Below are positions 18,589-61,443 of a stretch of 61,443 nt of DNA, one piece after another. Each line of letters begins with the position of its first letter. The stretch's first letter is position 1. The position numbers were made by a program, and so were the translations under genes. The DNA is from a virus: IMG/VR virus record IMGVR_UViG_3300042905_004017, positions 1 through 61,443 of that record; one strand, given 5' to 3'. A model generated the notes under the pieces. The model made no database searches. It was given only the letters and a program-made list of their open reading frames with translations, and was not told the DNA's origin.

Positions 18589-19459
18589 TATAGTCACCAG
18601 AAAGAGAACCGCCACCCCACGAGCCCATGCCTTGTCTGGTATAACTAGGAGTCAGTCCATTCATCTCAAGGATATCGTCCCGGAGATTTTGATTACGCTT
18701 TTCAATATTGAGTACTCGAGTAAAGCTATTAGTGATAGCAGCAGTATAGTAAGCAAAAGGATTTTGACTCTTGCTTTCATCAAATTGTAGTCCTATCTGT
18801 GATAGTTGCAGCAGTGCTTGGCTGCGCATTTCGTCGTTGTAAGTATAACCACGCCAGTTTGATCTTGTAGCATAACGTTCGCACAGTTTCATAAACATGT
18901 GTGCCAGTGTTCTTGTCATAGTACCGTGATCTCTATTAAACTTGCCTTTGATCAAATCACCTTGCCAATGACTTTTGCCCACACAGTAGGGAACGCCGTC
19001 TTCGTCAATTTTATAGTGCTGGAACGGGGGAAAGTTGACCTTGACAAATTTGCTAGGCAACACTGCCGCAGCATCGTCGTATTCGGTTAATGGGTCTGTG
19101 TCATCGTCCTCTACCGGCGCTTTGACTTTTTTTGATTTGGCCGCGTCGGTGGGAATGTGTTCCCAGGTCATCACTCTAAACACTATGTCTGTGGTGGGAA
19201 TTTTGCTTGGTTTGACAGCAAAATCATCCAGCTTTAACTTGACTGTGCTGGTTGATTGCGCTAGATCATAAGCAGCACGAGTCAATCTTTCTGCTCGCAA
19301 CTTGCGTCCCTCGGCTGTGTTTTTCTTGTTGATTTTGTCTACAGATGGCAAAATGATATCATAATAGGCATCTTGTGCGGTTGCAAAGCTGCAATAGGTA
19401 ATCTTGCTTTTGTGTATTTCTTTTAAAATATCTCTGTTGTTTAGGTAATTGTGTTTCAT
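18578..19459 (-). CDS. 55: Late-transcription sigma factor gp55 with N-terminal extension
   Basis: A 293-residue protein whose C-terminal half is T4 gp55, the sigma-like factor that directs host RNA polymerase to TATAAATA late promoters. Recognisable parts are VGKSHWQGD (160-168), SNWRGYTYNDEMRSQAL (200-216) and PFAYYTAAITNSFTRVLNIE (234-253). T4 gp55 has 185 residues; here an additional ~110 residues precede an acidic linker (DDDTDPLTEYDDA, 118-130). The extension includes VFRVMTWEHIPTD (93-105), which looks like a separate conserved domain, so a fusion is possible. AAGGA precedes the ATG. A sigma70-like promoter upstream fits the need to make gp55 before late genes. Confidence 0.93.
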   Translation of the reverse strand: MKHNYLNNRDILKEIHKSKITYCSFATAQDAYYDIILPSVDKINKKNTAEGRKLRAERLTRAAYDLAQSTSTVKLKLDDFAVKPSKIPTTDIVFRVMTWEHIPTDAAKSKKVKAPVEDDDTDPLTEYDDAAAVLPSKFVKVNFPPFQHYKIDEDGVPYCVGKSHWQGDLIKGKFNRDHGTMTRTLAHMFMKLCERYATRSNWRGYTYNDEMRSQALLQLSQIGLQFDESKSQNPFAYYTAAITNSFTRVLNIEKRNQNLRDDILEMNGLTPSYTRQGMGSWGGGSLSGDYNDD

Positions 19460-46664: not shown

Positions 46665-46672
46665 CATAAATA
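46665..46672 (+). promoter_or_regulatory. Candidate late promoter for the second fibre pair
   Basis: CATAAATA lies 25 bases before the ATG at 46697, followed by a GGAG ribosome site. It occupies the 68-base gap after the adhesin gene and matches the motif before gp6. Confidence 0.5.
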
Positions 46673-46696: not shown

Positions 46697-48331
46697 ATGG
46701 CATACAATATTACCCTAACCAATGGTACTGCTTTAATCAGTGGCGGACTACCAGATGGAACAATTGACACAATTAACAGCAGCTTGACTTTGGTTGGTAA
46801 AAATTATCCCGGATACGGTATTTTCCTAAACCAAAACATGGTAAAATTGATGGAAAATTTTGCCAATGGCTCTGCTCCCACAGCACCACTGCCAGGACAA
46901 TTATGGTGGAATTCGACCACAAAATACCTTAACATAAACACTGCTAGCACCAAGGGCACTGCAAATGCTGTGTGGAAAACCATTGCCACAATGACCTATG
47001 CATCCAGTTTTACTACAACTCCAGTTCCGGGCGAGCAGTGGTATGACACAATCAATGGACAGCTTAAAGTGTGGAACGGATCAGCCTGGGTCACGATTGG
47101 TCCCGCAGCCACAACCGCAACTGGTAACTCAGGGGCTATCCCAGACACAATTGCCGCAGTAAGTCCGGCAGCGACCTACGTGGTTCTTAAATTTTTTATC
47201 AACGACACCCTGGTTGGTATCTGGAGCAAAGAAGCAGCCTTTACAACAGCCATAAGTGGATTTGCACAGGTCAATCGCGGTCTAAACCTCAGCACAGATT
47301 TGAGCCAGGCCTATTACGGTAACGCCGATGTGGCATTATCACTGTCTGTGAGTGGTGTCAAAGTTCCTGGCACAAGTTTTTTAAGAAACGACACATCCGG
47401 TACAATTGCAGGAGCATTGACCTTGAGTGGAGCCGCCAGTGACGGTGGACTCACATTTGGGCAAGCTGGGGACTTTGTAGGATCAGTCAGCAGCGGCAAT
47501 GTGACCCTAAGAAATCAAACCAACAACAGAGAACTAATTTTAAGCTTAAAAACCGGAGGTGTACAAACACCATTTTTTAAAGGCAATTGGCAAACAGGAT
47601 TACCAGAAGCATTTGCTAATCCCACAGTATCTAGCCCGGCCCTTACCTTGGCTACAAAAAGTTATGTAGACAACCAACTTGGCAGTGGTACCGGAGTAAG
47701 CACATTTGCAGCCAGTTTGAATCCTGATGCAAACGTTACATACACGTTAGGAAATACAACAAACAGATGGAGTAATGTGTTCACAGAAAGTGTATTGGTT
47801 GGTAATGTGTTTGCTGCCAATGCCAATGTACACACAGTTTATGCATCTGGTACCATATTGCCAACGTCCAATACCACTGTTAATCTAGGAAGTACAGGCA
47901 TGTGGTTTAATACGTTTTATGGAGTGTCTGTACAAGCACAATACGCTGACTTGGCAGAAAGATTTGAAACAGATCAACCGTATGATCCAGGCACTGTAGT
48001 TGCACTTGGTGGCATAAAAGAAATTACCGCGGCTGCCGAAGAATTAAGCGAAGATGTGTTTGGCGTCATAAGTACTAGAGCAGCTTATTTGATGAATGGT
48101 GCTGCTGGATCAGACACAACTCATCCACCAGTGGCAGTCAACGGCCGAGTACCTGTAAGAGTGATAGGGCCAATACGCAAAGGTGATCGATTGGTAAGTG
48201 CAGGCAACGGCTTGGCCAGAGCTGGTGCAAAACATGAACTGTCACCATTTAATGTGATTGGTCGCAGTCTACAAGACAAATTAGACACCGGTGAAGGCAC
48301 AATCGAAGCCATTGTCAAACTCAATAGTTAG
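46697..48331 (+). CDS. Tail fibre protein with 'ADLAERF' C-terminal domain
   Basis: A 544-residue fibre. The N-terminus (SSLTLVGKNYPGYGIFLNQN, then MENFANGSAPTAPLPGQLWW) is paralogous to that of the 43778 protein; a second QWYDT unit follows at ~112. The middle is Ser/Gly/Thr beta-rich, with ATKSYVDNQLG near residue 318. The C-terminal ~130 residues begin QYADLAERFETDQPYDPGTV and contain FGVISTRAAYLMN and VNGRVPVRVIGPIRKGDRLV, a domain frequent at the ends of aquatic-phage fibres and spikes that may assist trimer folding. GGAG and a late promoter lie upstream. It is probably a distal fibre segment. Confidence 0.75.
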   Translation: MAYNITLTNGTALISGGLPDGTIDTINSSLTLVGKNYPGYGIFLNQNMVKLMENFANGSAPTAPLPGQLWWNSTTKYLNINTASTKGTANAVWKTIATMTYASSFTTTPVPGEQWYDTINGQLKVWNGSAWVTIGPAATTATGNSGAIPDTIAAVSPAATYVVLKFFINDTLVGIWSKEAAFTTAISGFAQVNRGLNLSTDLSQAYYGNADVALSLSVSGVKVPGTSFLRNDTSGTIAGALTLSGAASDGGLTFGQAGDFVGSVSSGNVTLRNQTNNRELILSLKTGGVQTPFFKGNWQTGLPEAFANPTVSSPALTLATKSYVDNQLGSGTGVSTFAASLNPDANVTYTLGNTTNRWSNVFTESVLVGNVFAANANVHTVYASGTILPTSNTTVNLGSTGMWFNTFYGVSVQAQYADLAERFETDQPYDPGTVVALGGIKEITAAAEELSEDVFGVISTRAAYLMNGAAGSDTTHPPVAVNGRVPVRVIGPIRKGDRLVSAGNGLARAGAKHELSPFNVIGRSLQDKLDTGEGTIEAIVKLNS

Positions 48332-48341
48332 GAAATAAAGT

Positions 48342-49295
48342 ATGTCTTACGCACAAGGTAGTTTAATTGAAGCACAAGATTATAATCAAATACTAGGCGC
48401 TAATACTAGTACAGACACCAGTACGATTCATGCTGTGTGGGCTTGGGGCAACGGTAGTAGAGGATATGGACAAACTCCTATTAGTCAGGTATCGGTGGCC
48501 AGTCTTGTTACAGCCACTCAATGGGCCACATTGGTTAACACAGTTAATAGTGCCAACTTACACATTCGCAATACCAGTTCTGGTTTAACTGCCAACACAG
48601 CAGGTCAGGTAATTGGGCATTCTGGCGGCTTACCTACCGCCATTACATTACTAAATCAAGACAGATTGTTGTTTGCAACCAATTCGGCTGTTGTGGCCAA
48701 CCAAAGCTCATTGACTGCATACCCGGCCTGGATAGTAGCCGATACTTCTGCCACAGTAACAAGAAGTTTTGGTGCCAATGTAGCATTTGCCAGTCCAGAT
48801 GCAGCAAGATTTTTCTTCAATGCCGGAGGCAGATTAAAATTCAATTGCAGTGCTGTGAACAATGTGGGCGCTGGTTCGAGATCTGCTGCTGTTGTAGACT
48901 TGTTTAATTTTGCAGGTGGAATAGCCACATTTGGCGCCAATACCAATGGCGGCAGGACCGGCACAGGCGGTACTTTGAACAGCAATGATACTGCAAAAGG
49001 TTATTATGAAGCCACAATTGCAAACATACAGTTAGTGTCAATCACATCAACCACAAGTTTATACACTTCAGATACTGTTACAATAACTTACAGAACTAAC
49101 GGCACTCAAGGACAACACAACGATAATGGCACTATTCTAAGTTTTTGGATAAACATTTCGTCGGCACAAGGAAGTGGTTCTCCTAGTGTCAACGACAACA
49201 TCAACATTACACCCACTGTGACAGTAGACGTTTCGGCTCCTGAAACAACCAATTTGACCAATACCTGGGGCACTGTCACAGTTACTCGTCAATAA
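48342..49295 (+). CDS. Fibre-like virion protein
   Basis: A 317-residue protein preceded by GGAA. It begins MSYAQGSLIEAQDYNQILG and continues VWAWGNGSRGYGQTPISQV (~30-48), a start seen in structural proteins of aquatic phages. The rest is Ala/Asn/Ser/Thr-rich beta sequence with RFFFNAGGRLKFNCSA about residue 160 and a long terminal beta region. It ends the virion block, and the DNA beyond contains a dyad and then the accessory operon. Likely a fibre or decoration; exact role unknown. Confidence 0.62.
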   Translation: MSYAQGSLIEAQDYNQILGANTSTDTSTIHAVWAWGNGSRGYGQTPISQVSVASLVTATQWATLVNTVNSANLHIRNTSSGLTANTAGQVIGHSGGLPTAITLLNQDRLLFATNSAVVANQSSLTAYPAWIVADTSATVTRSFGANVAFASPDAARFFFNAGGRLKFNCSAVNNVGAGSRSAAVVDLFNFAGGIATFGANTNGGRTGTGGTLNSNDTAKGYYEATIANIQLVSITSTTSLYTSDTVTITYRTNGTQGQHNDNGTILSFWINISSAQGSGSPSVNDNINITPTVTVDVSAPETTNLTNTWGTVTVTRQ

Positions 49296-49312: not shown

Positions 49313-49341
49313 TTTACCTTTATACAAGGTTAGCGTAAAAT
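49313..49341 (+). promoter_or_regulatory. Candidate sigma70-type promoter for the right-hand accessory operon
   Basis: TTTACC (49313-49318) and TAAAAT (49336-49341) are separated by exactly 17 bases. The start would lie near 49348, about 21 bases before the ATG at 49369. The -10 lies inside the loop of an inverted repeat. No late motif is nearby, suggesting non-late expression. Confidence 0.4.
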
Positions 49342-49351
49342 ACTGCTAACC
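49328..49351. promoter_or_regulatory. Inverted repeat GGTTAGC-N10-GCTAACC: operator or weak terminator
   Basis: A perfect 7-bp dyad with a 10-base centre (49328-49334 and 49345-49351). The following TTTCTA is a poor T-tract, so an intrinsic terminator after the virion block is possible but weak. The dyad flanks a sigma70-like -10, so it could equally be a repressor operator. Confidence 0.5.
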
Positions 49352-49368
49352 TTTCTACAATCTTTAAC

Positions 49369-49683
49369 ATGGATACCATAAACGATATTGTAGGCCAGAT
49401 AAAATTGGCCACAGATTTTCAAATCAACAAAAAAATTTTACGAGAAAAAATTTGCTCAGACCTACACATGACTCACAACGGAGGCATGTTTAAAATTTCA
49501 CCAGAATTGTTAGCATTTGTACAAACCTGGCCCATCGATGAATTGTGTTTGGAAGATGCGTACGAAAATCCTGTACAAATTGATCGACAGACATTTTTAA
49601 TCACTGCACAACAACACTATCAAACCGTTATGAATCGTTGGCATCAGCAATATGAAGATCTCAAAAAAATCAGAAAAATCTAG
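49369..49683 (+). CDS. Small conserved-looking phage protein, unknown function
   Basis: A 104-residue, mostly helical protein, first in the right-hand accessory operon. Notable stretches are DLHMTHNGGMFKISPELLAF (~31-50) and WPIDELCLEDAYENPVQIDR (~54-73). It ends in a charged helix (WHQQYEDLKKIRKI). It has a single pair of cysteines (C29, C60) and no membrane segment. Its 3' end overlaps the next gene by 32 bases. I do not know its function. Position raises the possibility of a regulatory, scaffold or substrate role for the modification enzymes downstream, without direct support. Confidence 0.6.
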   Translation: MDTINDIVGQIKLATDFQINKKILREKICSDLHMTHNGGMFKISPELLAFVQTWPIDELCLEDAYENPVQIDRQTFLITAQQHYQTVMNRWHQQYEDLKKIRKI

Positions 49684-50440
49684 AGGAATTTTGGCTTTTG
49701 CTTACAATGTTGAAACTATTGATTATGTATCAATAGCCAAACAAACTTTGCAGTTGGCCGGTAAAAAATTAGATTTACCATACACGTTGATAACAGATAA
49801 AGAATTTCACAATCAATCTCAAAATTCAAGATATGACATTGACTCCGGAAAGTTTATTACATGGAGAAATACAGGTAGGCATTGTGCATATGATTTGACA
49901 CCCTATGACGAAACATTAGTTATTGATGTAGATTATGTTGTGTTAAACAGCAATCTAAATAAAATATTTGATTGTGAATGGGATTATCTGTTGCAAAGAA
50001 ACACCTTTGCGTTGACCACACAGTACCCGCTACTGATGGGAGAAACCAGTTTACCGTTTGTCTGGGCCACGGTATTTGCATTTAGAAAAACTGCCAAATC
50101 TCGAATGTATTTTGATCTAGTAGGAAGAATACAAAGAAACTATAATTATTATCGATCACTTTACAATATTCAAGAAAGAATTTTTAGAAACGATTTTGCA
50201 TTTGCAATAGCGGACGTGATTTTAAATGGCTACAGCATAATAACAAATTCTATACCAGAGAATATGTTGACTGTAGATCAGGTGATAGATAGTATTCAAA
50301 CGCTTGATGATAATTTAGTTATAAAAGATTCCAACCGAGCCTATGTTGTGCCAAGAAACAATCTGCATGTAATGAGCAAAGCATACTTACAAAGTAAAGA
50401 TTTTAGTAAATTGATCAAGGGATTACTTGATGAATCATAA
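49652..50440 (+). CDS. Glycosyltransferase-like protein (GT-A/GT8-like)
   Basis: A 262-residue protein with a nucleotide-sugar transferase layout. It has an N-terminal strand (RGILAFAYNVETIDYVSIAK, 11-30), then AYDLTPYDETLVIDVDYVVL (~78-97), in which D-V-D is a candidate metal-binding DxD. It resembles the next gene product strongly at this point (FDLTPFKETIKLESDILL), so the two are paralogues. The likely reaction is transfer of a sugar from a nucleotide donor. The acceptor is unknown. No good ribosome site is seen; translation probably depends on the overlap with the upstream gene. Confidence 0.6.
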   Translation: MKISKKSEKSRGILAFAYNVETIDYVSIAKQTLQLAGKKLDLPYTLITDKEFHNQSQNSRYDIDSGKFITWRNTGRHCAYDLTPYDETLVIDVDYVVLNSNLNKIFDCEWDYLLQRNTFALTTQYPLLMGETSLPFVWATVFAFRKTAKSRMYFDLVGRIQRNYNYYRSLYNIQERIFRNDFAFAIADVILNGYSIITNSIPENMLTVDQVIDSIQTLDDNLVIKDSNRAYVVPRNNLHVMSKAYLQSKDFSKLIKGLLDES

Positions 50441-51254
50441 AGAACAATTTGGTTATTTGACAGTGGCATGTAATAACAATCAAGTTGATTATTTGCGATT
50501 GGCCTATGCACAAGCTTTGTGCGTGAAAAAAACACAAAAGAACAATCGGTTTGCAGTAATTGTAGATGCCAACACTGAAAAATTCTTAAATGAAAAACAT
50601 CAACAGGTGTTTGATTATGTGATACAAGTGCCCGAACACAATCTTGGTCCATATGGTGCAGAAGCCTTCGTATTTGACTTAACTCCGTTTAAAGAAACAA
50701 TCAAACTAGAGAGTGACATACTTTTGACACGCAGCATAGATCATTGGATTAATACGTTTAGGTTGAGAGACATGGTGTTGAGTGTGGGATGTAAAAATTA
50801 TCGCCAAGAGCCGTCATTGTCTAGAGCATATAGAAAAACATTTGACGATAACCATTTACCGGATGTGTATAATGGATTAATGTATTTTAGATTTACACAG
50901 ACTGCAAAGAATTTTTTTGATACAGCTAAAAATATTTTTTCCAATTGGGACACAATAAAAAATCAAATAAAAAATTGCAGGGAAGACATACCTAGTACAG
51001 ATTTGGTTTTTGCACTGTCAGCTCAAATAATAGGGCCGGAGTTGTGTACCCTACCCACTGCTGATTTTATTAATTTTGTACACATGAAATCTGCAATAAA
51101 TGAATTTGATCGTGATTTAAATTTTAATCAAGTTTTTGTCACTGAATTTGATACGGGCATGATTAGAATCAATAATGTAAATCAATATCATCCTTTGCAC
51201 TATTATGATAAAAACTTTTTAACCGACGAAATGATAGATTATTATGAGCAATGA
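50430..51254 (+). CDS. Glycosyltransferase-like protein, paralogue of the preceding gene
   Basis: A 274-residue protein starting at ATG 50430 behind AAGGGA; a TTG one codon upstream is ignored. The N-terminus YLTVACNNNQVDYLRLAYAQ and the core FDLTPFKETIKLESDILLT (E-S-D in the DxD position) parallel the preceding protein. PDVYNGLMYFRFTQTAKNFF (~150-169) resembles the acceptor-side region of GT8-like enzymes, where NxGxxxF is common. It overlaps both neighbours by 11 bases. Tandem paralogues suggest sequential sugar additions to one acceptor. This is inference. Confidence 0.62.
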   Translation: MNHKEQFGYLTVACNNNQVDYLRLAYAQALCVKKTQKNNRFAVIVDANTEKFLNEKHQQVFDYVIQVPEHNLGPYGAEAFVFDLTPFKETIKLESDILLTRSIDHWINTFRLRDMVLSVGCKNYRQEPSLSRAYRKTFDDNHLPDVYNGLMYFRFTQTAKNFFDTAKNIFSNWDTIKNQIKNCREDIPSTDLVFALSAQIIGPELCTLPTADFINFVHMKSAINEFDRDLNFNQVFVTEFDTGMIRINNVNQYHPLHYYDKNFLTDEMIDYYEQ

Positions 51255-51618
51255 TTTCTGGCAAGAAGTTTTTAGATTGGTTGACGAATATGATGCTGCT
51301 CGTCCTCAAATAACGATCGAACCTAGATTGTACTACAACACGCAAGATGGCACTGTTACAGGCTATTGCGAAACTGCTCATCCTGACAATGAAAATTATA
51401 TAGTTTTAGAAAATCCTGATGTTTACTTTAGAAACAACACAAATTTATTAAGAGTAAAAGATGGCAAATTGATTGTTATTGATCCCAAGCAACCAAGCAA
51501 GGCAAGACTAAAAAAATCCACGGCTGGGTATAAAACAGTAAAAGAGCACGCCTCGTTGCTGTTGGAATCAACAGAAGATTATCATGATATCGAATACTAT
51601 GACCACACAAACGATTGA
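51244..51618 (+). CDS. Small protein, unknown function
   Basis: A 124-residue protein within the glycosyltransferase run, overlapping its neighbours by 11 and 35 bases. After a helical start (FWQEVFRLVDEYDAAR, 5-20) comes a beta-rich core: RLYYNTQDGTVTGYCE (28-43), NYIVLENPDVYFRNNT (51-66) and LLRVKDGKLIVIDP (68-81), followed by a basic helical tail. The core looks like a small beta-barrel or fibre-terminal module of a kind seen in other phages. It has no catalytic motif, so it could be a binding protein or a substrate of the enzymes around it. This remains unproven. Confidence 0.6.
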   Translation: MSNDFWQEVFRLVDEYDAARPQITIEPRLYYNTQDGTVTGYCETAHPDNENYIVLENPDVYFRNNTNLLRVKDGKLIVIDPKQPSKARLKKSTAGYKTVKEHASLLLESTEDYHDIEYYDHTND

Positions 51619-52528
51619 TATAGCAGATTTAGATTGTATTTTTTTAACTTATGACGAACCTAAAAAAGAAGAATTCTGGATACGTATTCAAAACATGGTG
51701 CCGTGGGCAAAACGAGTTGACGGTGTCAAAGGGTCAGATGCTGCACACAAAGCTGCCGCCGCTGCAAGCGACACAGAACGATTTGTTCTAGTTGATGGAG
51801 ACAACATACCCGATCCAGAGTTTTTTAACTTACAGTTACGGATAGACGAAAGAAATCATGACCACGTTTTTAGATGGAAAGCACGTAATGTGGTAAATGG
51901 TTTGCGTTATGGTAATGGCGGTGTAAGTTGCTGGACTCGAGAGTTTGTTTTCAACATGCGTACCCACGAAGCCAGTTTAGGTGACGAAGAAACTGCCGTG
52001 GAATTTTGTTTTAATCCCAAATACACAGCCATGCACAATTGTTACAGTACAACCTATCCTAATGGTAGTGCCAAACAAGCATGGCGTGCTGGATTTAGAG
52101 AAGGTGTAAAAATGTGTCTTGACCGGGGGCACAAACCTTCATTACAGGAATTTGAAGAAGGCGTGAATAAAAGAAATTATGATAATCTTTGTATATGGCA
52201 CAGCGTAGGTGCTGATGTAGAAAACGGTTACTGGGCCATGTACGGAGCAAGACTAGGCACATACATGATCATGCTAGAAGGATGGGATTACCATCAGGTA
52301 CAAGATTTTGACATGTTAGAAAAGTTATGGTCAAGCTTTGGTAAAGAAGACCCCCAAGAAGGATGTGAACGCATTGAAGATGCATTACGCAATAGACTGG
52401 GACTACCTATTGTTATGTTCACGCCTGATCAAAGTCGATTCTTCAAGCATCATTATTCAACTGGTCAAAGAAACAGTGAAATTATGATGACAGAAATTGA
52501 TGTAATACGAAGGATTGAAGGATGGTAA
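51584..52528 (+). CDS. Glycosyltransferase-like protein (GT-A, DGDN motif)
   Basis: A 314-residue protein. CIFLTYDEPKKEEFW (18-32) is a GT-A-type first strand. AAAAASDTERFVLVDGDNIP (~57-76) carries D-G-D-N, a good DxD metal/nucleotide-sugar motif. FRWKARNVVNGLRYGNGGVS (~95-114) is an acceptor-side segment. Proteins with this organisation are found in other aquatic phages and in some bacteria. ATG 51584 follows AGAAG; ATG 51599 is an alternative. It overlaps the first of the five clustered radical SAM genes by seven bases, so sugar transfer and radical chemistry are probably on one pathway. Confidence 0.66.
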   Translation: MISNTMTTQTIDIADLDCIFLTYDEPKKEEFWIRIQNMVPWAKRVDGVKGSDAAHKAAAAASDTERFVLVDGDNIPDPEFFNLQLRIDERNHDHVFRWKARNVVNGLRYGNGGVSCWTREFVFNMRTHEASLGDEETAVEFCFNPKYTAMHNCYSTTYPNGSAKQAWRAGFREGVKMCLDRGHKPSLQEFEEGVNKRNYDNLCIWHSVGADVENGYWAMYGARLGTYMIMLEGWDYHQVQDFDMLEKLWSSFGKEDPQEGCERIEDALRNRLGLPIVMFTPDQSRFFKHHYSTGQRNSEIMMTEIDVIRRIEGW

Positions 52529-53904
52529 GTGATTTTATGTCAGCTGCTGAACAGGCTAAAGAAAAATTAGGTCCTAGCCTCTGTTTGGCCAAATGGCAGC
52601 AGGTAAGCCTGCACCTTCCTACTGGATTGACCAATAGTTGCTATCATCCGCCACTACATGAAATAGATTCAAGTTTGTTAAGAGATAATCCCAGTGCATT
52701 GCATAACACACCTTACAAAAAAACTCAGCGTCAAATTATGTTACGCAACGAAAGGCCGGAGGAATGTAGTTATTGTTGGACACAAGAGGACATAGGGAAT
52801 TTAAGCGATAGGCATTACAGATCTGGTGAACCATGGGCTGCGGAGCACTTTGACGCTATCGTCAATTCCACTGGCGACGAGGACGCTATTCCTTCCTATG
52901 TGGAAGTCAATTTCAACCATGCTTGCAACCTCAAGTGTAGCTATTGCAGTCCGCAGTTTAGTAGCAGCTGGGGTGAGGAAATTGGAAGATTTGGAGGATA
53001 TCCCACTAGTACTATTCATAATGATGTTTCCCATTTTACAGGTCGCAGAAAACCTATCCCCGCTCGTGAGGAAAATCCTTACGTAGATGCATTCTGGGAA
53101 TGGTGGCCAAGTCTATATCCAAAACTAAAACATTTTAGAATGACCGGCGGCGAGCCCTTGATGGATCGCAATACATATCGTGTGTTTGACTATGTGTTAG
53201 CATTTCCTAAATCTGATTTGCACATTGATGTCACTAGCAATTTTAGTGTGGAACAAAAGTTATACGATCAGTATCATGATTATGTAAAAAGATTGTGCGA
53301 TACTAACATAGAACACTTTATGCAATATGTTAGTTTAGACTCAGGAGTACGTGGCCATGCCGAATATATACGTCACGGCTTGGACTTTAATAGAGTACAT
53401 GAAAATGTTCATAGATATTTGGATAAGATTCCCAATAGAAACAGTTTAAGTTTTATTGTCACAATGAGTAATTTAAATGTGCTTGGACTACAAACTTTGC
53501 TACAGTGGATTTTATCATTACGACTTTTATATAGTAAAACATATCAAAGAGTTTGGTTTGACACGCCCATACTGAGACAACCCACTTGGCAAAGTTTGCA
53601 GATACTTCCGCCTGTGTATACCAAACGATTGCAGGATGTGGTAGATTGGATGCGAGCAAATTTAGAAACCACTGAACGACCATTTCAAGGATTTAAAGAC
53701 TACGAAGTGCAAAGATTACAACGAGTCGTAGATTGGATGCGAGAAGGTAGCAAATTAGATCAAGAATATGTTAAACTACAACGTGCTGATTTTTTTAGAT
53801 TCTTTAATGAGCACGATAAACGGAGAAATACTTGGTTTTTGAATGCCTTTCCAGAAATGCAAGAGTTCTGGAATGAATGTAAATATCATGCCCAAAATTC
53901 ATAA
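52522..53904 (+). CDS. Radical SAM protein, type A
   Basis: A 460-residue radical SAM enzyme. Cys135-x3-Cys139-x2-Cys142 (CNLKCSYC) is the iron-sulfur/SAM motif, and TGGEPLM follows at ~209-215. The N-terminal auxiliary cysteines are Cys21 (CLAKW), Cys40 (SCYHP) and Cys82/Cys85 (ECSYC), the same layout as the proteins at 17281 and 53888. C-terminal FFNEHDKRRNTWFLNAFPEM matches the shared tail. It overlaps neighbours on both sides. Radical SAM enzymes of this kind with auxiliary clusters modify peptides, sugars or cofactors; nothing in the sequence names the substrate here. Confidence 0.87.
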   Translation: MVSDFMSAAEQAKEKLGPSLCLAKWQQVSLHLPTGLTNSCYHPPLHEIDSSLLRDNPSALHNTPYKKTQRQIMLRNERPEECSYCWTQEDIGNLSDRHYRSGEPWAAEHFDAIVNSTGDEDAIPSYVEVNFNHACNLKCSYCSPQFSSSWGEEIGRFGGYPTSTIHNDVSHFTGRRKPIPAREENPYVDAFWEWWPSLYPKLKHFRMTGGEPLMDRNTYRVFDYVLAFPKSDLHIDVTSNFSVEQKLYDQYHDYVKRLCDTNIEHFMQYVSLDSGVRGHAEYIRHGLDFNRVHENVHRYLDKIPNRNSLSFIVTMSNLNVLGLQTLLQWILSLRLLYSKTYQRVWFDTPILRQPTWQSLQILPPVYTKRLQDVVDWMRANLETTERPFQGFKDYEVQRLQRVVDWMREGSKLDQEYVKLQRADFFRFFNEHDKRRNTWFLNAFPEMQEFWNECKYHAQNS

Positions 53905-55240
53905 CGAAACAGATTTAGAATACAAGCGTAGAGTGATTGACATTAAGTCCGAATCATTCTGCGGAGCAAAATGGTATAACGCAACTATATGGTTAGGCAG
54001 TGGCATGACTACCAGTTGCCATCATCCGCTCCCGCATAAAGTCAGCGTTCTAGAAGTGCAAGCAAATCCTCGAGTATTACATAACACAACCAAAAAGAAA
54101 GAGGAACGTCGTCAAATGCAAGCAGGCCAAAGACCAGCTGGTTGCGAATATTGTTGGAAGATCGAAGACATCGGTCGCGACAACGTTAGTGATCGTGTTT
54201 ACAAAACGGTAATATATTCAGATGAGGATTTGGAACATGCATACAACACTAGCTTCGACAAAGATATCAATCTTCGCACTCTTGAAATCAGTTTTGACCG
54301 TACTTGTCAGTTTGCTTGCTCTTATTGCAATCCTGCATTCAGTAGTACTTGGGTCAAAGACATTAATACCAATGGGCCTTATGTGGAACTTGAGTCTGAC
54401 GGTAGGAACCATTTTACTCATAGTCATGATAGTGCTCAGTTGTTTAAATTTGGTCAAGATAATCCATACGTCACAGCATTCTTCCAGTGGTGGGAATCAG
54501 ATCTCCACCGAACCTTAGATGAATTGCGTATAACCGGCGGCGAACCACTAATGTCAGGTTATACCTGGCAATTGCTTGATTGGTTCAAAACAAATCGAGG
54601 CCGAAGCAAAACACGATTGGCAATCAATTCTAACCTAGGAGCTCAAGTTGATCTCGATCGCTTATTTGAAAGTGTGGACTCACCCATTGACTTATACACT
54701 AGTAATGAAAGTATCGGAGCTCATGCAGAGTATATTAGAGACGGACTGGTTTGGGACGATTGGGCTAATAATATAGAATTAACATTAGATCATCAAGTAG
54801 GCAATAAATTACGTGGCTTACACATTATGTGCACCATTAATGCTTTGTGTTTAGAAAGTCTTACAGAATTTTTAGATCTCATAATAGAATGGAAACAAAA
54901 CTACGGACGCGATTTCCCTAGCTTTACGTTAAACATATTACGATTTCCTAGTTTTCAAAGTCCACTTGTGTTGTCGGACGAAACAAGAACACGACATAAA
55001 AATAATTTAGAGGCCTGGTTGGCGGCAAATAATAATGAATACCTGCATCAACATGAAGTAAATCATGTGCAACGCCTAATTGATTATTTAGATATTGTAA
55101 AAACTCCACACGCAGGAGCAGCAGAACAAAAAATATTACAACGAGATTTTAAAAAATTTTATCAACAGTATGACAAACGACGAGAAAAAAAATTTATAGA
55201 AACGTTTCCTAACTTGGTAGATTGGTACAATAAATTATGA
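53888..55240 (+). CDS. Radical SAM protein, type A
   Basis: A 450-residue radical SAM enzyme, paralogue of the preceding gene. The core motif is Cys140-x3-Cys144-x2-Cys147 (CQFACSYC), with TGGEPLM. The N-terminal cysteines are Cys25 (CGAKW), Cys44 (SCHHP) and Cys86/Cys89 (GCEYC). The tail is FYQQYDKRREKKFIETFPNL. ATG 53888 is preferred to 53843 or 53873 because it leaves a leader of about the same length before the first cysteine motif as in the paralogue. It overlaps the preceding gene by 17 bases and the next by four. Tandem duplication followed by divergence is likely. Confidence 0.87.
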   Translation: MPKIHNETDLEYKRRVIDIKSESFCGAKWYNATIWLGSGMTTSCHHPLPHKVSVLEVQANPRVLHNTTKKKEERRQMQAGQRPAGCEYCWKIEDIGRDNVSDRVYKTVIYSDEDLEHAYNTSFDKDINLRTLEISFDRTCQFACSYCNPAFSSTWVKDINTNGPYVELESDGRNHFTHSHDSAQLFKFGQDNPYVTAFFQWWESDLHRTLDELRITGGEPLMSGYTWQLLDWFKTNRGRSKTRLAINSNLGAQVDLDRLFESVDSPIDLYTSNESIGAHAEYIRDGLVWDDWANNIELTLDHQVGNKLRGLHIMCTINALCLESLTEFLDLIIEWKQNYGRDFPSFTLNILRFPSFQSPLVLSDETRTRHKNNLEAWLAANNNEYLHQHEVNHVQRLIDYLDIVKTPHAGAAEQKILQRDFKKFYQQYDKRREKKFIETFPNLVDWYNKL

Positions 55241-56700
55241 GTGTTAAAGGATTTTATAATAAAGGATATGTGTATAATGAGAGAGCTCCGTATTTTATTG
55301 AACGTGAGCAACTTACAGATAGACAATGGCAATTGCTTACTGAAAGCAAAACATTTTGCATGATGCCGTGGGTACACATGCATGCTTTTCCAGATGGTCG
55401 CGCATATCCGTGTTGCCTTGCAGATTACTGGTATCCAGTTGGAGACTTACGTAAGAACACAATGAAGGAAATATGGAATCAAGAATCTTACAAAACCATG
55501 CGAAAGAATATGCTGGAAGATAAGCCTTGTAAAGAATGCAACAAATGTTATGAACAAGAATCAAACGGTTTTTTTAGTTTAAGACATGACGGAAACCGCA
55601 ATTACGGACATCATATAAAAGAAGTTGATCAAACTGCCAACGATGGCTACCATCCAGAATTTAAAATAAGATATTGGGATGTGAGGTTTAGCAATCTTTG
55701 TAATTTCAGTTGTCGTAGTTGCGGTCCGATCTTTAGTAGTAATTGGTATAATGATCATGTCAAGTTGTACAATCGCAAACCTGATGTGCTTGGCAGAGAA
55801 ATGGCCAGGGTTGAATATACAGCAGGTGACGAAGATACTATGATAGAGCAAATGCTTCCGCATATTCCGTATCTTGAACAAGTTTATTTTGCCGGCGGCG
55901 AACCTCTAATCATGAAAGAACATTACTTCATGTTAGAAAAATTGATCGAACATGGTAAAACAGATGTGCGTATTCAATACAACACAAACTTCAGTGAACT
56001 TGCTTATAAAGATAAACATGTTTTTGATTACTGGCGACATTTTAAAAACGTCAGCGTTGGTGCTAGTTTAGACGCATCTGGAGCTAGAGCCGAACTTATG
56101 CGTCGAGGCACAGATTGGAAACAAACTGTAGAAAATCGACAAAGAATGATAGCAGAAGTTCCGCATGTTGATTTTTATGTTAGTGCTACAGTTAGTGCTA
56201 TGAATGTATTACACGTATTAGACTTTCACCGTGAATGGACAGAGTTGGGTCTGATTCAAGCAAAGGATTTTAATATCAATTTATGCCAATCGCCAGACTG
56301 GTATCGACCAAATATTTTTCCTAAAGAATTTAAAGAAAGAGTTATTGTTCCAAAATATCAAGAACACATAGAATGGTTGAAAAACAAAGACTCTTTAAAA
56401 CGTGCTACTAATGGATTTGAATCATTGTTAAAGTTTATTTTGTCAAATAATAAAGAAGAAATTCAAGTTCATGAATTTGAGTATGAAACATTTAAAGGGG
56501 AAAGTTGGCCAAGCTGGAATGATTTTTGTAACGGAGTTAAGTCAAAAAATAGTTTGATAAATGAAGAAATTGATCAATTTGTTCAATCAATTAAACAAAC
56601 GAGAGGACTTCAAGAGTTTAAAAATCAAATTAAAAAATTAGATGAAATTAGAAATGAAAATTTTTGGAAAGTATTCCCCGAATTAAATGAATTTGCCTAA
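55237..56700 (+). CDS. Radical SAM protein, type B
   Basis: A 487-residue radical SAM enzyme of a second subtype. The N-terminal segment is CMMPW (Cys41) followed by YPCCLAD (Cys59/Cys60) and CKECNKC (Cys98/101/104), rather than the CxAKW/SCHHP of type A. The core motif is Cys155-x3-Cys159-x2-Cys162 (CNFSCRSC), with AGGEPLI at ~218-224. It resembles radical SAM proteins described as having a half-SPASM 'twitch' domain at the N-terminus. C-terminal LDEIRNENFWKVFPEL is a variant of the type A tail. An ATGA overlap joins it to the preceding gene. Confidence 0.87.
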   Translation: MSVKGFYNKGYVYNERAPYFIEREQLTDRQWQLLTESKTFCMMPWVHMHAFPDGRAYPCCLADYWYPVGDLRKNTMKEIWNQESYKTMRKNMLEDKPCKECNKCYEQESNGFFSLRHDGNRNYGHHIKEVDQTANDGYHPEFKIRYWDVRFSNLCNFSCRSCGPIFSSNWYNDHVKLYNRKPDVLGREMARVEYTAGDEDTMIEQMLPHIPYLEQVYFAGGEPLIMKEHYFMLEKLIEHGKTDVRIQYNTNFSELAYKDKHVFDYWRHFKNVSVGASLDASGARAELMRRGTDWKQTVENRQRMIAEVPHVDFYVSATVSAMNVLHVLDFHREWTELGLIQAKDFNINLCQSPDWYRPNIFPKEFKERVIVPKYQEHIEWLKNKDSLKRATNGFESLLKFILSNNKEEIQVHEFEYETFKGESWPSWNDFCNGVKSKNSLINEEIDQFVQSIKQTRGLQEFKNQIKKLDEIRNENFWKVFPELNEFA

Positions 56701-57895
56701 GACAATTTGCATGCTGCCGTGGATAAGCATAGAAACAAGTCCAATTGGTACGGCCAGACCTTGTTGTTTGGCTATTGATGAAATCACAGATGATACAGGT
56801 AGAAAATATGATCTAAATAAAACAGACTTACAGACCATATATAACAGCACGTACATGCAAAAATTACGACAGCAATTTCGTGCAGGAGAAAAACCTGAAA
56901 CGTGTAATCGTTGCTGGCAAGAAGAAGATGCTGGTCGTGCAAGTAAAAGAATTTATAGCAAGATAAGGTTAAAAGAGTTTGTTGATAAAGTTGACTATGC
57001 AAACGATACCCCTGATCAGCTTTGGTTTGTTGATTTAAAACTAGGCAACATTTGTAATCTCAAATGTAGAATATGTGGTTCTTGGTCTAGTAGTAGATGG
57101 GCACAAGAAGAAATAGATTACATACCGGAATTAAAAAACAAAAAAGACCATCTTGCCTATAAATTTTTACAACAAGGCGCATGGCCGCGTAAGACACAAA
57201 CATTTTGGAACAATCTTCGAGAACTATTGCCTAATATTAAATATTTTGAATTTACCGGCGGCGAGCCTTTTATGATTCAAGAGCACTTTGATTTATTACA
57301 GTATGCAGTTGATCAAGGCCATGCTCAAAATATTGATATACATTACAATACTAACGGAACTCAATGGCCAGATGCACATGAATTATGGAAACACTTTAAA
57401 CGTGTAGATATTGCATTTAGTATTGATAATGTAGAACAAAGATTTGAATATGAACGCTACGGAGCAAAATGGAATGAAGTTACAGAAAATATAAAAAATT
57501 TTCATGATTTACGTGATCAATATCGAGGTAAAATTACAACACAGGCATGCATGACAATCAATATTCAAAATGTGTATTACCTAGAAGATCTATGTGCCTG
57601 GATTAATACACAAACGTTTGATGATCATTATTTTAATATGTTACATGATCCTAAACACATGTGTGTTGATAACCTAACCGAGGCAGCAAAACAAATTGTC
57701 GTAGAAAAATTAAAAGCAGGCACTTTTACACCTAGACATCGAGCAGAAATTTTGCGTATTATCAAATTTATAGAAAATGGCGCAGGATCTGATGGTGAAG
57801 AATTTGTTTTTAAAATGAAAAAAACAGACCAATATCGAAAACAAAGTTTTGAAGATACTCATCCAGAAATAGCCAGAGCAATGGGGTATGACTAA
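56687..57895 (+). CDS. Radical SAM protein, type B
   Basis: A 402-residue enzyme of type B. CMLPW (Cys8), RPCCLAI (Cys26/27) and TCNRC (Cys73/76) form the N-terminal set. Cys123-x3-Cys127-x2-Cys130 (CNLKCRIC) is the SAM-cluster motif, with TGGEPFM and IHYNTNGTQ following. It ends QYRKQSFEDTHPEIARAMGY, a tail related to the FPE motif of the others. It overlaps the previous gene by 14 bases and the following glycosyltransferase-like gene by eight. Confidence 0.87.
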   Translation: MNLPKTICMLPWISIETSPIGTARPCCLAIDEITDDTGRKYDLNKTDLQTIYNSTYMQKLRQQFRAGEKPETCNRCWQEEDAGRASKRIYSKIRLKEFVDKVDYANDTPDQLWFVDLKLGNICNLKCRICGSWSSSRWAQEEIDYIPELKNKKDHLAYKFLQQGAWPRKTQTFWNNLRELLPNIKYFEFTGGEPFMIQEHFDLLQYAVDQGHAQNIDIHYNTNGTQWPDAHELWKHFKRVDIAFSIDNVEQRFEYERYGAKWNEVTENIKNFHDLRDQYRGKITTQACMTINIQNVYYLEDLCAWINTQTFDDHYFNMLHDPKHMCVDNLTEAAKQIVVEKLKAGTFTPRHRAEILRIIKFIENGAGSDGEEFVFKMKKTDQYRKQSFEDTHPEIARAMGYD

Positions 57896-58784
57896 ACTAC
57901 AATTGGTTTTATCGCAAAATTGTTATACTTCTTTTCACCAACCTTGGTTAGTAGACCTTGTATCAGATTATTTTGATATAGTTTATATTGAGCACAATCT
58001 CACACTTGATAAAAGAGCTATTTTTGTTACAAATGTACTCAGTAATGATAATAAATGGATAGATAAAGAAAGAAAATTAATAGTAGATAATCTTTGGGAA
58101 ATATATCAACCTAGTCATGATCATAATCGTAGATTAGTTCTTGTAAATAAAAATTGGTTTTGGTATAATGAATCACTATGGTATAGATACCTAGGATATC
58201 ATAATCATATTCCTAATCTTAAAATTTCTAAAAATGGTTTATTGTTGATGCATCTAAAAAAATTGCATAGAACAGAACTTTTTGAAAAATTGAATCTTGA
58301 TAATTTATTGTTTAGTTATGTTGCGGCTGGTTATACTATATCTAATGATATGGATTATAATGATGGTGAATGGCAACGATACTTCAATCCAGACTGGTAT
58401 AATTCTACCGCATTTAGTATAGTAGCAGAAACTATGGTAATGCCTAAAGATCCTTTGTTTGTTACAGAAAAAACCTTTAAGCCAATTGCCTTTCAACATC
58501 CTTTTATAATATTAGGACAACCAGGTATTTTAAGATATTTACGATCGCTAGGCTTTGAAACATTTGAAAATATATTTGACGAATCGTATGATAACGAAAA
58601 TGCAATTGATAAAAGATTAACAAGCGTTGTGAATCAAATCAATAATTACTCACATAAAAATTATGATTTGTACACTCTCAAAAAACTTACACATAATAAA
58701 GAATTGTTTTTCAACGAACAACTAGTAAAAGAAAAAATTAAAAAAGAAATTATAGAACCTATTTTAGAATATGCAGAAACCTGA
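57888..58784 (+). CDS. Glycosyltransferase-like protein (GT10/fucosyltransferase-like C-terminus, tentative)
   Basis: A 298-residue protein. The C-terminal half contains FVTEKTFKPIAFQHPFIILG then QPGILRYLRSLGFETFENIF and DESYD (~200-250), a pattern widespread in phage and bacterial proteins. It resembles the donor-binding [T/S]-E-K-x-x-[K/R]-x-[I/L] segment of fucosyltransferase-type GT-B enzymes. The N-terminal half (QNCYTSFHQPWLVDLVSDYF, WFWYNESLWYRYLGY) has no clear motif. It lies between two type B radical SAM genes and overlaps both. Glycosyl transfer is likely but the donor sugar is unknown. Confidence 0.52.
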   Translation: MTKLQLVLSQNCYTSFHQPWLVDLVSDYFDIVYIEHNLTLDKRAIFVTNVLSNDNKWIDKERKLIVDNLWEIYQPSHDHNRRLVLVNKNWFWYNESLWYRYLGYHNHIPNLKISKNGLLLMHLKKLHRTELFEKLNLDNLLFSYVAAGYTISNDMDYNDGEWQRYFNPDWYNSTAFSIVAETMVMPKDPLFVTEKTFKPIAFQHPFIILGQPGILRYLRSLGFETFENIFDESYDNENAIDKRLTSVVNQINNYSHKNYDLYTLKKLTHNKELFFNEQLVKEKIKKEIIEPILEYAET

Positions 58785-60069
58785 TAAACTATGTATGGCA
58801 CCATGGACGCATACATATCTCAGTCCTCAAACTGAAAGGCGTCTATGTTGTGCTAGTAGAGAACCTGCACAAAATTTTGCACAATACATAGATGTTAGTT
58901 CTGGTACAGGTCAATACATTCCAATCTCATTAGAACAGCATTGGAATGGTAATCATATGCGTAGTGTACGCCAACGAATGTTAGCAGGAGAAACACTACC
59001 TGAGTGCGAAGTATGTAACGAAAAATTACTAAACACAGACGTTTACCGCAGTTATTTTAATAATTTGTTTGCACATAAGTATCAACAAGTGTTAGAAAGT
59101 ACCGACGAAACAGGATATACAACTATGCAACCTGTTAGTTGGGATTACAGATTTAGTAATCTCTGTAACTTCAAATGCCGTATGTGCGGCGACATGTTGT
59201 CTAGTAGTTGGGAAAGTGAGCAAAGACAACACAATATGATCAATTGGCAGGATCCAAAAAATAATTGGATGCGGCCTGAAATCAAACACGAAATTGAACA
59301 GTTCCAGACAACTCAGATTGAAGCCGAGTTTGCAGCAGCAGTAGAGGACCACCGTATAGAGGAAGTGTATTGGGTGGGCGGAGAACCGTTAATGTATGAA
59401 CAGCATTGGCGGTATATGCAGCGCATTATAGAACTGGGAGATGGACCTAAAGTTTATGCTAGATACAATACTAATCTTAGTCGTGTTAATTACAGAGGCT
59501 GTAATCTTTATAGCGATATACTTACTAAACTGCGCGATTGGCAAATATGTGCCAGCATCGATGGCACAGGCCAAATTGGAGAATATATCCGAACAGGCCT
59601 TGATTATGAGGCATGGCTTGCTAACTTTAAGGAAGGAATTAGAATCTCTACGCACCGAAGGCAAATGAGATTAGACTTTACGCTTACCCTTCCGGGCATG
59701 TTTGAAGTAACGAATATACAGCAGTTAGCCGACAAGTTGGGTGTTGACATTCTGGCCAAGGTTGTGTTTAGTTTTACGCCGGACATAGTTATGTCACCTT
59801 TAGCCCTACCTAGATCCTTATTAGATCCTTGGGTAGACGAAACAATAATGGAACTTGGCACAGATGGCCCGTTAAAGGATATCTTGATTCAGCTTAAAAC
59901 ACGCCCTACCTTCCAAGAGCAATATGGTGAAACGGTATACCGTCAAGGTATTGCTCGAGGACGAGCTCGTGTGTTACAATTAGAATCTATTCGTAGTCAA
60001 AATATAACTATGGATGAAATACTATCAAAAAGAACGGATGTATATGAGTGGTGGACGGCCATCAGTTAA
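58771..60069 (+). CDS. Radical SAM protein, type B
   Basis: A 432-residue enzyme. The N-terminal cysteines are Cys8 (CMAPW), Cys26/27 (RLCCASR) and Cys79/82 (ECEVC). The core is Cys132-x3-Cys136-x2-Cys139 (CNFKCRMC), with VGGEPLM and YARYNTNLS. It is the last radical SAM gene of the run. Its C-terminal part is less like the others, ending DEILSKRTDVYEWWTAIS. It overlaps the previous gene by 14 bases and the next by about 30. Confidence 0.87.
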   Translation: MQKPDKLCMAPWTHTYLSPQTERRLCCASREPAQNFAQYIDVSSGTGQYIPISLEQHWNGNHMRSVRQRMLAGETLPECEVCNEKLLNTDVYRSYFNNLFAHKYQQVLESTDETGYTTMQPVSWDYRFSNLCNFKCRMCGDMLSSSWESEQRQHNMINWQDPKNNWMRPEIKHEIEQFQTTQIEAEFAAAVEDHRIEEVYWVGGEPLMYEQHWRYMQRIIELGDGPKVYARYNTNLSRVNYRGCNLYSDILTKLRDWQICASIDGTGQIGEYIRTGLDYEAWLANFKEGIRISTHRRQMRLDFTLTLPGMFEVTNIQQLADKLGVDILAKVVFSFTPDIVMSPLALPRSLLDPWVDETIMELGTDGPLKDILIQLKTRPTFQEQYGETVYRQGIARGRARVLQLESIRSQNITMDEILSKRTDVYEWWTAIS

Positions 60070-61228
60070 AGTTGTATTAAGAAATCCTTTAAACTATAGT
60101 GATCAAATTGACTACACTATAATTCCACATGACAATATTCTAGCACGAGATTGGACAGTAGCACTAAAATTGTTACTAGAATCAAATAGTTTGTTAGAGA
60201 AAAATTTTTGTTTTATAGGTTTTCCAAATAATTCAAGAAATATAGAATATCTTTGTAACGAAATCAATCGAGCAATATTTCAAATTAATACATTTAATGC
60301 CAGCTTGCAATGGCAAAAACAAGGATTACAATCATACATAATTGAAGATTTTTTTACTCCTGATGTTGTAAGATTCGGAGAAGAATATGAAACCGGACAC
60401 CAGGGTAATAAAGTGCATCATGACGATACTTATTATGCACAACATTTAGGTTTGCAAACTAAACAAAGTGCGTTAAACAGACTGCATAATCATTTTGAGA
60501 AGCTACAAGGTACTGTAGATAATTTGAGTTCTTATTACTTAGTAGCCGATTATGAAACAAAATATGCTATAAGACAATTAAATAATTTGTGTCATGAGTT
60601 AGAAAATTTACTTTTAAGTCAACACAAGCAGAAATATTTAAAAGAATGGATAAGACCAAGCCAAATAACCACGTGGTTACATGCAACCAGATATCACTTA
60701 ACAAATGAACACAAGCAACTCTTTTTAGTAAATAAATTTGATAGAAAATTTGGACATGTTTACATGCACTGGAGTCAGATTGGAAAAACTTACTATGAAG
60801 TATTCAGAGACGAGAACGCTCCTGATCTAATAGATACGGTATGTGATGCAATAACACAACTGGAATATTACAGCGGAGAGTTTGATGTTGAATGGGGCCA
60901 AGATACAGTTTATGGTAACCCAAACACAACTTGGGTAACTAAAGATTTAGATTTGTTTTATAATTGGTTAATCAAAAACAACAAAGATCCTGATGATCCT
61001 AATTTGTGTAATGGGTACATTCCAATTGGAGAAATAGATTTACAAAAATCGTTTGGATCAAAAAACAAGTTTGATATATGGGAAATTTTAAGCAGTCATC
61101 TTGACATTTACAGTATTGAAGTTGACGGAATAAAAAAAACGTATGAATATTGTTGGACGGATGCTAGTTATAAACAAATGCAAATAGACATAATGAAACC
61201 AGGATATGATTTTAGTAGCAGGCGGTGA
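60038..61228 (+). CDS. Uncharacterised protein, accessory operon
   Basis: A protein of about 396 residues with no recognised catalytic motif. It opens VKVVLRNPLNYSDQIDYTII and contains VHHDDTYYAQHLGLQTKQSA then LNRLHNHFEKLQGTVDNLSS, followed by IRQLNNLCHELENLLL. The mix of conserved-looking His/Asp and helical segments suggests a folded, perhaps metal-binding, protein. Starts at 60014, 60038 and 60044 are possible and none has a strong ribosome site; 60038 was chosen because only the first residues differ. It overlaps the radical SAM gene upstream and the SGNH gene downstream, so it belongs to the same unit. Confidence 0.6.
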   Translation: MYMSGGRPSVKVVLRNPLNYSDQIDYTIIPHDNILARDWTVALKLLLESNSLLEKNFCFIGFPNNSRNIEYLCNEINRAIFQINTFNASLQWQKQGLQSYIIEDFFTPDVVRFGEEYETGHQGNKVHHDDTYYAQHLGLQTKQSALNRLHNHFEKLQGTVDNLSSYYLVADYETKYAIRQLNNLCHELENLLLSQHKQKYLKEWIRPSQITTWLHATRYHLTNEHKQLFLVNKFDRKFGHVYMHWSQIGKTYYEVFRDENAPDLIDTVCDAITQLEYYSGEFDVEWGQDTVYGNPNTTWVTKDLDLFYNWLIKNNKDPDDPNLCNGYIPIGEIDLQKSFGSKNKFDIWEILSSHLDIYSIEVDGIKKTYEYCWTDASYKQMQIDIMKPGYDFSSRR

Positions 61229-61443
61229 TAGTTTTGTATACGGCAGTGAACTAAAAGATTGTAACGTCAATATTAATCGTGCCGACTCAATAAAAAATGT
61301 TTACAATCATAGTTCTCTTACTTTTCCGGCATTATTAGCTGATAATTTAAAATATATCTGTACCGCCTGGCCAGGGTACAGCAATGAAAGTATTGCTAGA
61401 ACAGTAATAGCGGAATGTTCACAATTTGATAATTGTGGTGTGC
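61206..61443 (+). CDS. SGNH/GDSL hydrolase-like protein (3' end beyond window)
   Basis: The frame from ATG 61206 is open to the window edge (79 residues). ILVAGGDSFVYGSEL contains the classical block I G-D-S (Ser9). TFPALLADNLKY (~47-58) and WPGYSNESIAR (~63-73) match the positions of the alpha-helix and block II of SGNH hydrolases. The GYSN sequence is shared with the minus-strand SGNH protein at 9797 (GGYSN). It overlaps the preceding gene by 23 bases. The C-terminal DxxH pair would lie outside the window. Likely an esterase or O-acyl hydrolase acting on a glycan; substrate unknown. Confidence 0.66.
   Translation, partial: MILVAGGDSFVYGSELKDCNVNINRADSIKNVYNHSSLTFPALLADNLKYICTAWPGYSNESIARTVIAECSQFDNCGV

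Follow-up and report, generated by a model that had tools for sequence, protein, structure and literature searches.

An ordered, fibre-linked cassette of twitch-domain radical SAM and glycosyltransferase-like genes in relatives of T4-like jumbo phages

Introduction

T4-like phages with many radical S-adenosylmethionine (rSAM) genes are already known. For the environmental T4-like genome TARA_ERS488813_N000010, 12 rSAM genes and an A-type iron-sulfur (Fe-S) carrier were reported in 2017 and are read there in terms of Fe-S metabolism (PMC5332604), while in 2020 rSAM cassettes were described within the host-recognition cluster of pelagimyophages (PMC7029224). Here we analyse a cassette of five rSAM genes, four genes for glycosyltransferase-like proteins and further conserved genes at positions 49369 to 61443 of IMG/VR record IMGVR_UViG_3300042905_004017, a stretch of 61,443 nucleotides that we call the window.

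In the pelagimyophages, which are marine and T4-like, the tail-fibre region contains rSAM cassettes along with numerous glycosyltransferases, as in our case, and an alteration of the host surface is proposed for them too; however, the available text, compared by its description, mentions neither a conserved operon or gene order nor orthologous groups or a promoter (PMC7029224). The presence of numerous rSAM genes alongside an A-type Fe-S carrier in a single phage is likewise shared with the 2017 genome, but the reading given there is a different one, and the available text does not treat how the genes are arranged. Both reports make the premise of an initial annotation of the window, that rSAM genes occur singly in phages, too narrow. 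A description of the ordered operon, its fibre linkage and its promoter was not found in the open-licence literature that we searched.

At the level of the enzymes, a comparison can be made with BtrN, the twitch rSAM dehydrogenase of butirosin biosynthesis, which oxidises an aminocyclitol and whose auxiliary cluster is fully ligated by cysteines (PMC9012708); its reaction and cluster ligation are also treated in PMC6231123.

Results

The five complete rSAM reading frames of the initial annotation were confirmed with their starts (Table 1), and an intact CxxxCxxC and GGEP motif is present in each of the encoded proteins. All junctions from 49369 onward, from p104 through the SGNH gene, overlap (by 4-32 bases), and the genes can therefore be regarded as one coupled operon. 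No hydrophobic stretch of transmembrane strength was found in any cassette member, which is consistent with work in the cytosol.

Relatives were collected by a viral-contig scan with six paralogues, which gave at least 587 confirmed relatives, and by a contig scan of genomes with the group C alignment. The counts from every locus scan rest on its best 80 loci, which share phylogeny and are statistically non-independent, and some contigs recur across scans. In uncultured relatives the order fib1-p104-gtX1-gtX2-p124-gt2-[A-B-C-D-E] recurs, and the full mapped order is fib0-fib1-p104-gtX-gtX-p124-gt2-A-B-C-D-(ft10)-E-u358-carbamoyltransferase, with insertions and losses. Between 2 and 10 rSAM genes are found per locus in all best 80 loci, spanning up to about 22 kb. 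Gene A stands ahead of B, C, D and E in 55, 59, 54 and 48 pairs, respectively, and the reverse order was seen in 0 pairs each time. Each of the five paralogues has an orthologous group of its own, since among the locus members the score against the own counterpart in the window is at the median 2.3-5.4 times that of the next best; in the tree the clades of E and F are well supported and those of A and B less so, and the boundary of C has no support.

The rSAM genes also keep company with the glycosyltransferase-like genes. With gt2 as anchor, one to seven rSAM genes are present in 62 of the 62 loci that have at least 5 kb downstream, and with gtX1 as anchor rSAM genes are present in 48 of 54 loci. 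The six exceptions lack twitch rSAM genes, two of them carrying the other rSAM type seen in the window, and keep p104-gtX1-gtX2-gt2; twitch rSAM enzymes are therefore not needed for the glycosyltransferase-like core to occur. This conservation of order, orthology and co-occurrence is more than chance. The initial annotation had named single, scattered genes in related phages as a finding that would speak against a common pathway. Across many contigs the block is not scattered, and together with the auxiliary-cluster domain described below this supports the multi-step pathway that the initial annotation had suggested, on the evidence of the sequences.

Table 1. Positions of the cassette genes and of other features in the window.
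Feature	Positions	Strand	Remarks
rSAM A	52522..53904	+	NF033640, 313.8 bits
rSAM B	53888..55240	+	NF033640, 285.5 bits
rSAM C	55237..56700	+	NF033640, 389.2 bits; AlphaFold2 model, predicted local distance difference test (pLDDT) 83.5
rSAM D	56687..57895	+	NF033640, 355.8 bits
rSAM E	58771..60069	+	NF033640, 282.9 bits
p104, conserved protein of 104 residues	49369..49683	+	first gene of the operon
gtX1, glycosyltransferase-like	49652..50440	+	invariant DxD only
gtX2, gtX1 homologue	50430..51254	+	hhalign probability 99.6
p124, small conserved protein of 124 residues	51244..51618	+	
gt2, GT2-like	51599..52528	+	invariant DGD; best-conserved non-rSAM member
ft10, GT10 (fucosyltransferase)-fold protein	57888..58784	+	fold match of AlphaFold2 model
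u358, conserved protein of 394 residues	60044..61228	+	between rSAM E and SGNH gene
SGNH-like hydrolase fragment, 79 residues	61206..61443	+	cut by window end
T4 late-promoter core ATAAATA	46666..46672	+	upstream of fib0
fib0, tail-fibre-like	46697..48331	+	PHROG tail fibre matches; IMC/Peptidase_G2-like C-terminus
fib1, fibre-like	48342..49295	+	directly 5' of cassette
Predicted sigma70-type cassette promoter TTTACC-17-TAAAAT	49313..49341	+	score 9/12
Palindrome AAGGTTAGC-loop-GCTAACCTT	49326..49353	.	-10 element in loop; RNA fold z -3.0
rSAM F, sixth NF033640 protein	17281..18615	-	outside cassette; 213.9 bits
rSAM protein of other subfamily	11627..12748	-	weak C-terminal SPASM match

According to NCBIfam model NF033640 (N-terminal twitch domain rSAM, curated cut-off 170 bits), the five cassette enzymes and rSAM F are all members of this family. 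The gene of rSAM F, which was absent from the initial annotation, overlaps the late sigma factor gene. Among 401 relatives, every member assigned to groups A-F has CxxxCxxC and nearly all have GGEP, and the twitch cysteines C41, C59, C101 and C104 are conserved in 98-100% of the rSAM relatives. Judged from these alignments, the cassette enzymes carry an N-terminal auxiliary-cluster (twitch) domain with four invariant cysteines. The residue following C59 is Tyr or His in A, B and F and a second Cys in C, D and E, and this position may mark a functional split between the two sets. In a profile comparison, enzyme C matched the twitch domain found in BtrN, and all four cluster-ligating cysteines were aligned. 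Unlike in the cassette enzymes, however, the domain is C-terminal in BtrN, and the barrel has only a generic likeness to known rSAM folds. In a PDB fold search the model of enzyme C gave generic rSAM matches (anSME, viperin, MoaA, DesII and EpeE) with template modelling (TM) scores of about 0.3-0.5. The rSAM protein of another subfamily (Table 1), also absent from the initial annotation, has a homologue within the cassette, between C and D, in two relatives (L008 and L009).

Could these enzymes serve to modify a peptide or protein without glycans being involved, as SPASM/twitch maturases acting on p104, p124 or another protein? Many SPASM/twitch enzymes do modify peptides, the fold matches of enzyme C include anSME and EpeE, and the operon holds two small conserved proteins. 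On the other hand, D and E start at the twitch domain, with the N-terminus at most 8 residues from the first twitch Cys, which leaves no room for a leader-peptide-binding domain (RRE) as described for SkfB and CteB (PMC6231123); a separate RRE protein, used by some enzymes for ribosomally synthesized and post-translationally modified peptides, was not searched for. We looked for a leader-core layout and a Cys-rich core in p104 and p124 and saw neither. Moreover, p104 persists in the six loci without twitch rSAM genes, and in several of them the position of p124 is kept by a weakly similar longer protein. The peptide role that the initial annotation had listed among its candidates is weakened by these observations, and we consider it quite improbable.

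The four proteins initially annotated as glycosyltransferase-like are backed by evidence of different kinds. For ft10, the AlphaFold2 model (pLDDT 89.9) finds fucosyltransferases as its top eight PDB fold matches, the best being a GT10 alpha-1,3-fucosyltransferase (2nzw; E 1.6e-5), and the protein carries a conserved E...TEK motif. The assignment as a GT10-fold protein is thus supported by the predicted fold, although identity is 10-13%, the TM score is about 0.45, and no GT10 Pfam match was obtained among 15 ft10 members. The window's gt2 reaches E 0.069 against the GT2 profile, and a relative with tandem gt2 reaches E 2.3e-5, yet stays under the curated cut-off of the model; weak Pfam GT2 matches in fused gt2 relatives and the invariant DGD suggest a GT2-like protein. 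Fusions of gt2 to a second gt2-like copy were seen at L302:6190-7794, L311:8452-11640 and L318:10996-13665, and those of L311 and L318 extend into repeats and, as judged by eye, a possible methyltransferase domain. The mutual homologues gtX1 and gtX2 have conserved acidic motifs. For gtX1, neither Pfam nor the PDB gave a match, and hhalign against the two GT8 templates used, WaaJ and WaaO, gave a probability of about 1% for gtX1 (with the DxD aligned) and 0.1% for gtX2. Sequence searches of solved structures with gtX1, gt2, ft10 and u358 returned nothing useful.

The cassette was also described as ending in a GDS-motif hydrolase. The motif holds for the relatives, which have about 270-296 residues and carry G[DC]S, but the copy in the window is a fragment and u358 intervenes after rSAM E; the SGNH relatives had no match among solved structures. 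Neighbouring genes in the relatives encode, by Pfam, a carbamoyltransferase, an epimerase and a nucleotide-sugar dehydrogenase, as well as an amidinotransferase that matches AGAT, the StrB1-type inosamine-phosphate amidinotransferase and SxtG. The amidinotransferase family lies near the cassette in 18 loci (for example L040:19504-20520, minus strand). These tailoring neighbours and the likeness to BtrN point to sugars, and the substrate is probably a glycan.

With fib1 as anchor, gtX genes lie within 2.5 kb in 70 of the 71 loci that extend far enough downstream and rSAM genes are present in 50 of 52, and among p104 genes with enough upstream sequence 35 of 37 have fib1 within two genes. In 182 distinct fib1-p104 gap sequences, a sigma70-type score of at least 10/12 was reached by 50.5%, compared to 1.3% of shuffles, with scores of 10-12/12 in many relatives and the exact 17-base spacing in 84 of 92 scored promoters. 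Terminator-like hairpins were found in 39% of the gaps vs. 1.5% of shuffles, and the late core ATAAATA in 4.4% vs. 2.1%. In fib0-fib0 gaps the pattern is reversed, with the late core in 79.5% and the sigma70 type in 2.3%. In the window itself the late core precedes fib0 and several structural genes but not p104. In T4, sigma70 promoters mark early genes. We therefore predict from the sequence that the cassette is transcribed early from its own promoter. The perfect palindrome at this promoter may serve as terminator and promoter at once, or as an operator, because the -10 element lies in its loop and the layout recurs: a -10 element in a palindrome loop was found in 34 of the 182 gaps vs. about 1.5% of shuffles, and in close relatives a similar layout is often followed by T-runs.

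The same gap bears on whether the enzymes act on the virion, that is, whether fib1 or some other protein of the virion is glycosylated and modified by them in the cell, ahead of assembly. The constant position of fib1 upstream of the cassette (70 of 71 fib1 loci and 35 of 37 p104 genes) and the soluble appearance of all enzymes would suit this, and glycosylated virions have a precedent in some mycobacteriophages (Freeman 2023, as cited in PMC12619734). Against it, a sigma70-type promoter, often with a terminator, parts the cassette from fib1, and the fibre genes carry late promoters; this contrast is the reason why we favour the host surface over the virion, with the limit that enzymes made early could also act on late proteins, so that the argument is not exclusive. 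We rate decoration of the virion as unlikely, though as the strongest of the competing explanations.

For the window, a 61-kb virus record, there is no accompanying host genome. Because it has T4-type portal, gp46/gp47-like, baseplate wedge and late sigma factor genes, the source virus can be assigned from these genes to the relatives of T4-like jumbo phages; its portal is nearest (about 50%) to those of jumbo phages such as PA5oct and Atu_ph07. By tblastn with A, C, gt2, fib1, p104, gtX1 and ft10 (the p104 and gtX1 queries taken from relative L302), none of 50,697 phage records contained a close relative of these cassette proteins, the sole matches being weak rSAM matches in Vibrio phages K566/K567 and in a single short record of marine origin. 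In Vibrio phage K566 (L088, OZ196521.1) three rSAM genes are annotated near one another; their likeness to the cassette enzymes is weak, and this phage is the best lead beyond metagenomic contigs. Contigs that carry fib0-fib1-p104 in metagenome-assembled genomes labelled Pelagibacter, Rickettsiales, Betaproteobacteria, Verrucomicrobia and Rhodobacteraceae were rejected as bacterial loci and taken as mis-binned phage. Bacterial NF033640 loci are mostly single-copy (53 of 79), whereas here five diverged paralogues stand in one operon. One exception is a bacterial metagenome-assembled contig (L101, Bacteriovoracaceae UBA6144) with eight twitch rSAM genes at one locus.

Beyond the cassette itself, 16 long phage records contain 7-21 NF033640 matches each, and 11 of the 16 have A-type Fe-S carriers. 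Both numbers fit an auxiliary function in Fe-S or host metabolism, as suggested in 2017 for T4-like genomes with multiple rSAM genes (PMC5332604). This proposal, however, leaves unexplained why the rSAM genes keep a set order with fibre and glycosyltransferase-like genes, and none of the metabolic equivalog models was matched above its cut-off by the cassette rSAM enzymes, so that we see it as a very improbable account. The scattered NF033640 copies of two long records have diverse neighbours, and SGNH or epimerase genes lie close to some of them.

Carbamoyltransferase and rSAM proteins are also linked to DNA hypermodification, and in known systems a thymidylate-synthase-family gene is the source of the hydroxymethylated bases. 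Glycosyltransferases and rSAM enzymes might then decorate the phage bases against host nucleases. That phages have glycosyltransferases acting on DNA is established (Pyle 2024, as cited in PMC12619734). We disfavour this explanation, and give it the lowest probability of all, because a thymidylate-synthase-family gene was not found in 7 of the 16 long cassette-bearing records, which are possibly incomplete; two of these seven measure 337 kb and 347 kb. In addition, the gene linked to the cassette encodes a fibre and does not belong to replication.

Discussion

Taken together, we tentatively favour a cytosolic operon for glycan building and tailoring that is read by the host RNA polymerase and aimed at a host surface glycan receptor, a reading that we hold at somewhat less than even confidence. 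In such a pathway, gtX1, gtX2 and gt2, plus ft10 where present, would assemble a sugar chain, on which the twitch rSAM enzymes would carry out distinct hydrogen-abstraction steps, with dehydrogenation, epimerisation and deoxygenation as examples. Optional neighbours (carbamoyltransferase, amidinotransferase, SGNH esterase or acyltransferase, and epimerase) could add further groups. The host RNA polymerase would read the operon from its own sigma70-type promoter, separately from the late fibre genes. The most likely target would be the host surface glycan that serves as receptor; phage would then no longer be captured by an infected cell or by debris from it, and the linkage to fib1 would keep the fibre and the receptor-masking enzymes matched. 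What the sequences show is the gene content and order, the orthology, the co-occurrence and the promoter contrast; a glycan as substrate, the reactions, the host-surface target and the purpose are inferred from them.

Several points weigh against this proposal. The substrate is not visible in the sequence, and the fold matches of enzyme C are generic. The gene linked to the cassette encodes a fibre, which suits virion decoration equally well. Early transcription is a prediction from sequence, and gtX1 and gtX2 are putative glycosyltransferases by motif only. The bacterial homologues have no constant glycan context, with only scattered GT2, PhyH, carbamoyltransferase and rSAM neighbours in their loci. 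Finally, function within this rSAM subfamily cannot be predicted from similarity (PMC6231123).

A more specific version of the host-directed glycan pathway is that up to five or more distinct twitch rSAM enzymes sequentially tailor one early-made, aminoglycoside-like glycan, of a structure not known in cells, and thereby rewrite the receptor of the fibre. We think this version doubtful. If the general proposal is right, a widespread group of uncultured phages would possess an unusually dense rSAM set devoted to a single product tied to host recognition. This set would also provide a new source of sugar-modifying enzymes and help to explain why some T4-like genomes have 7-21 rSAM genes.

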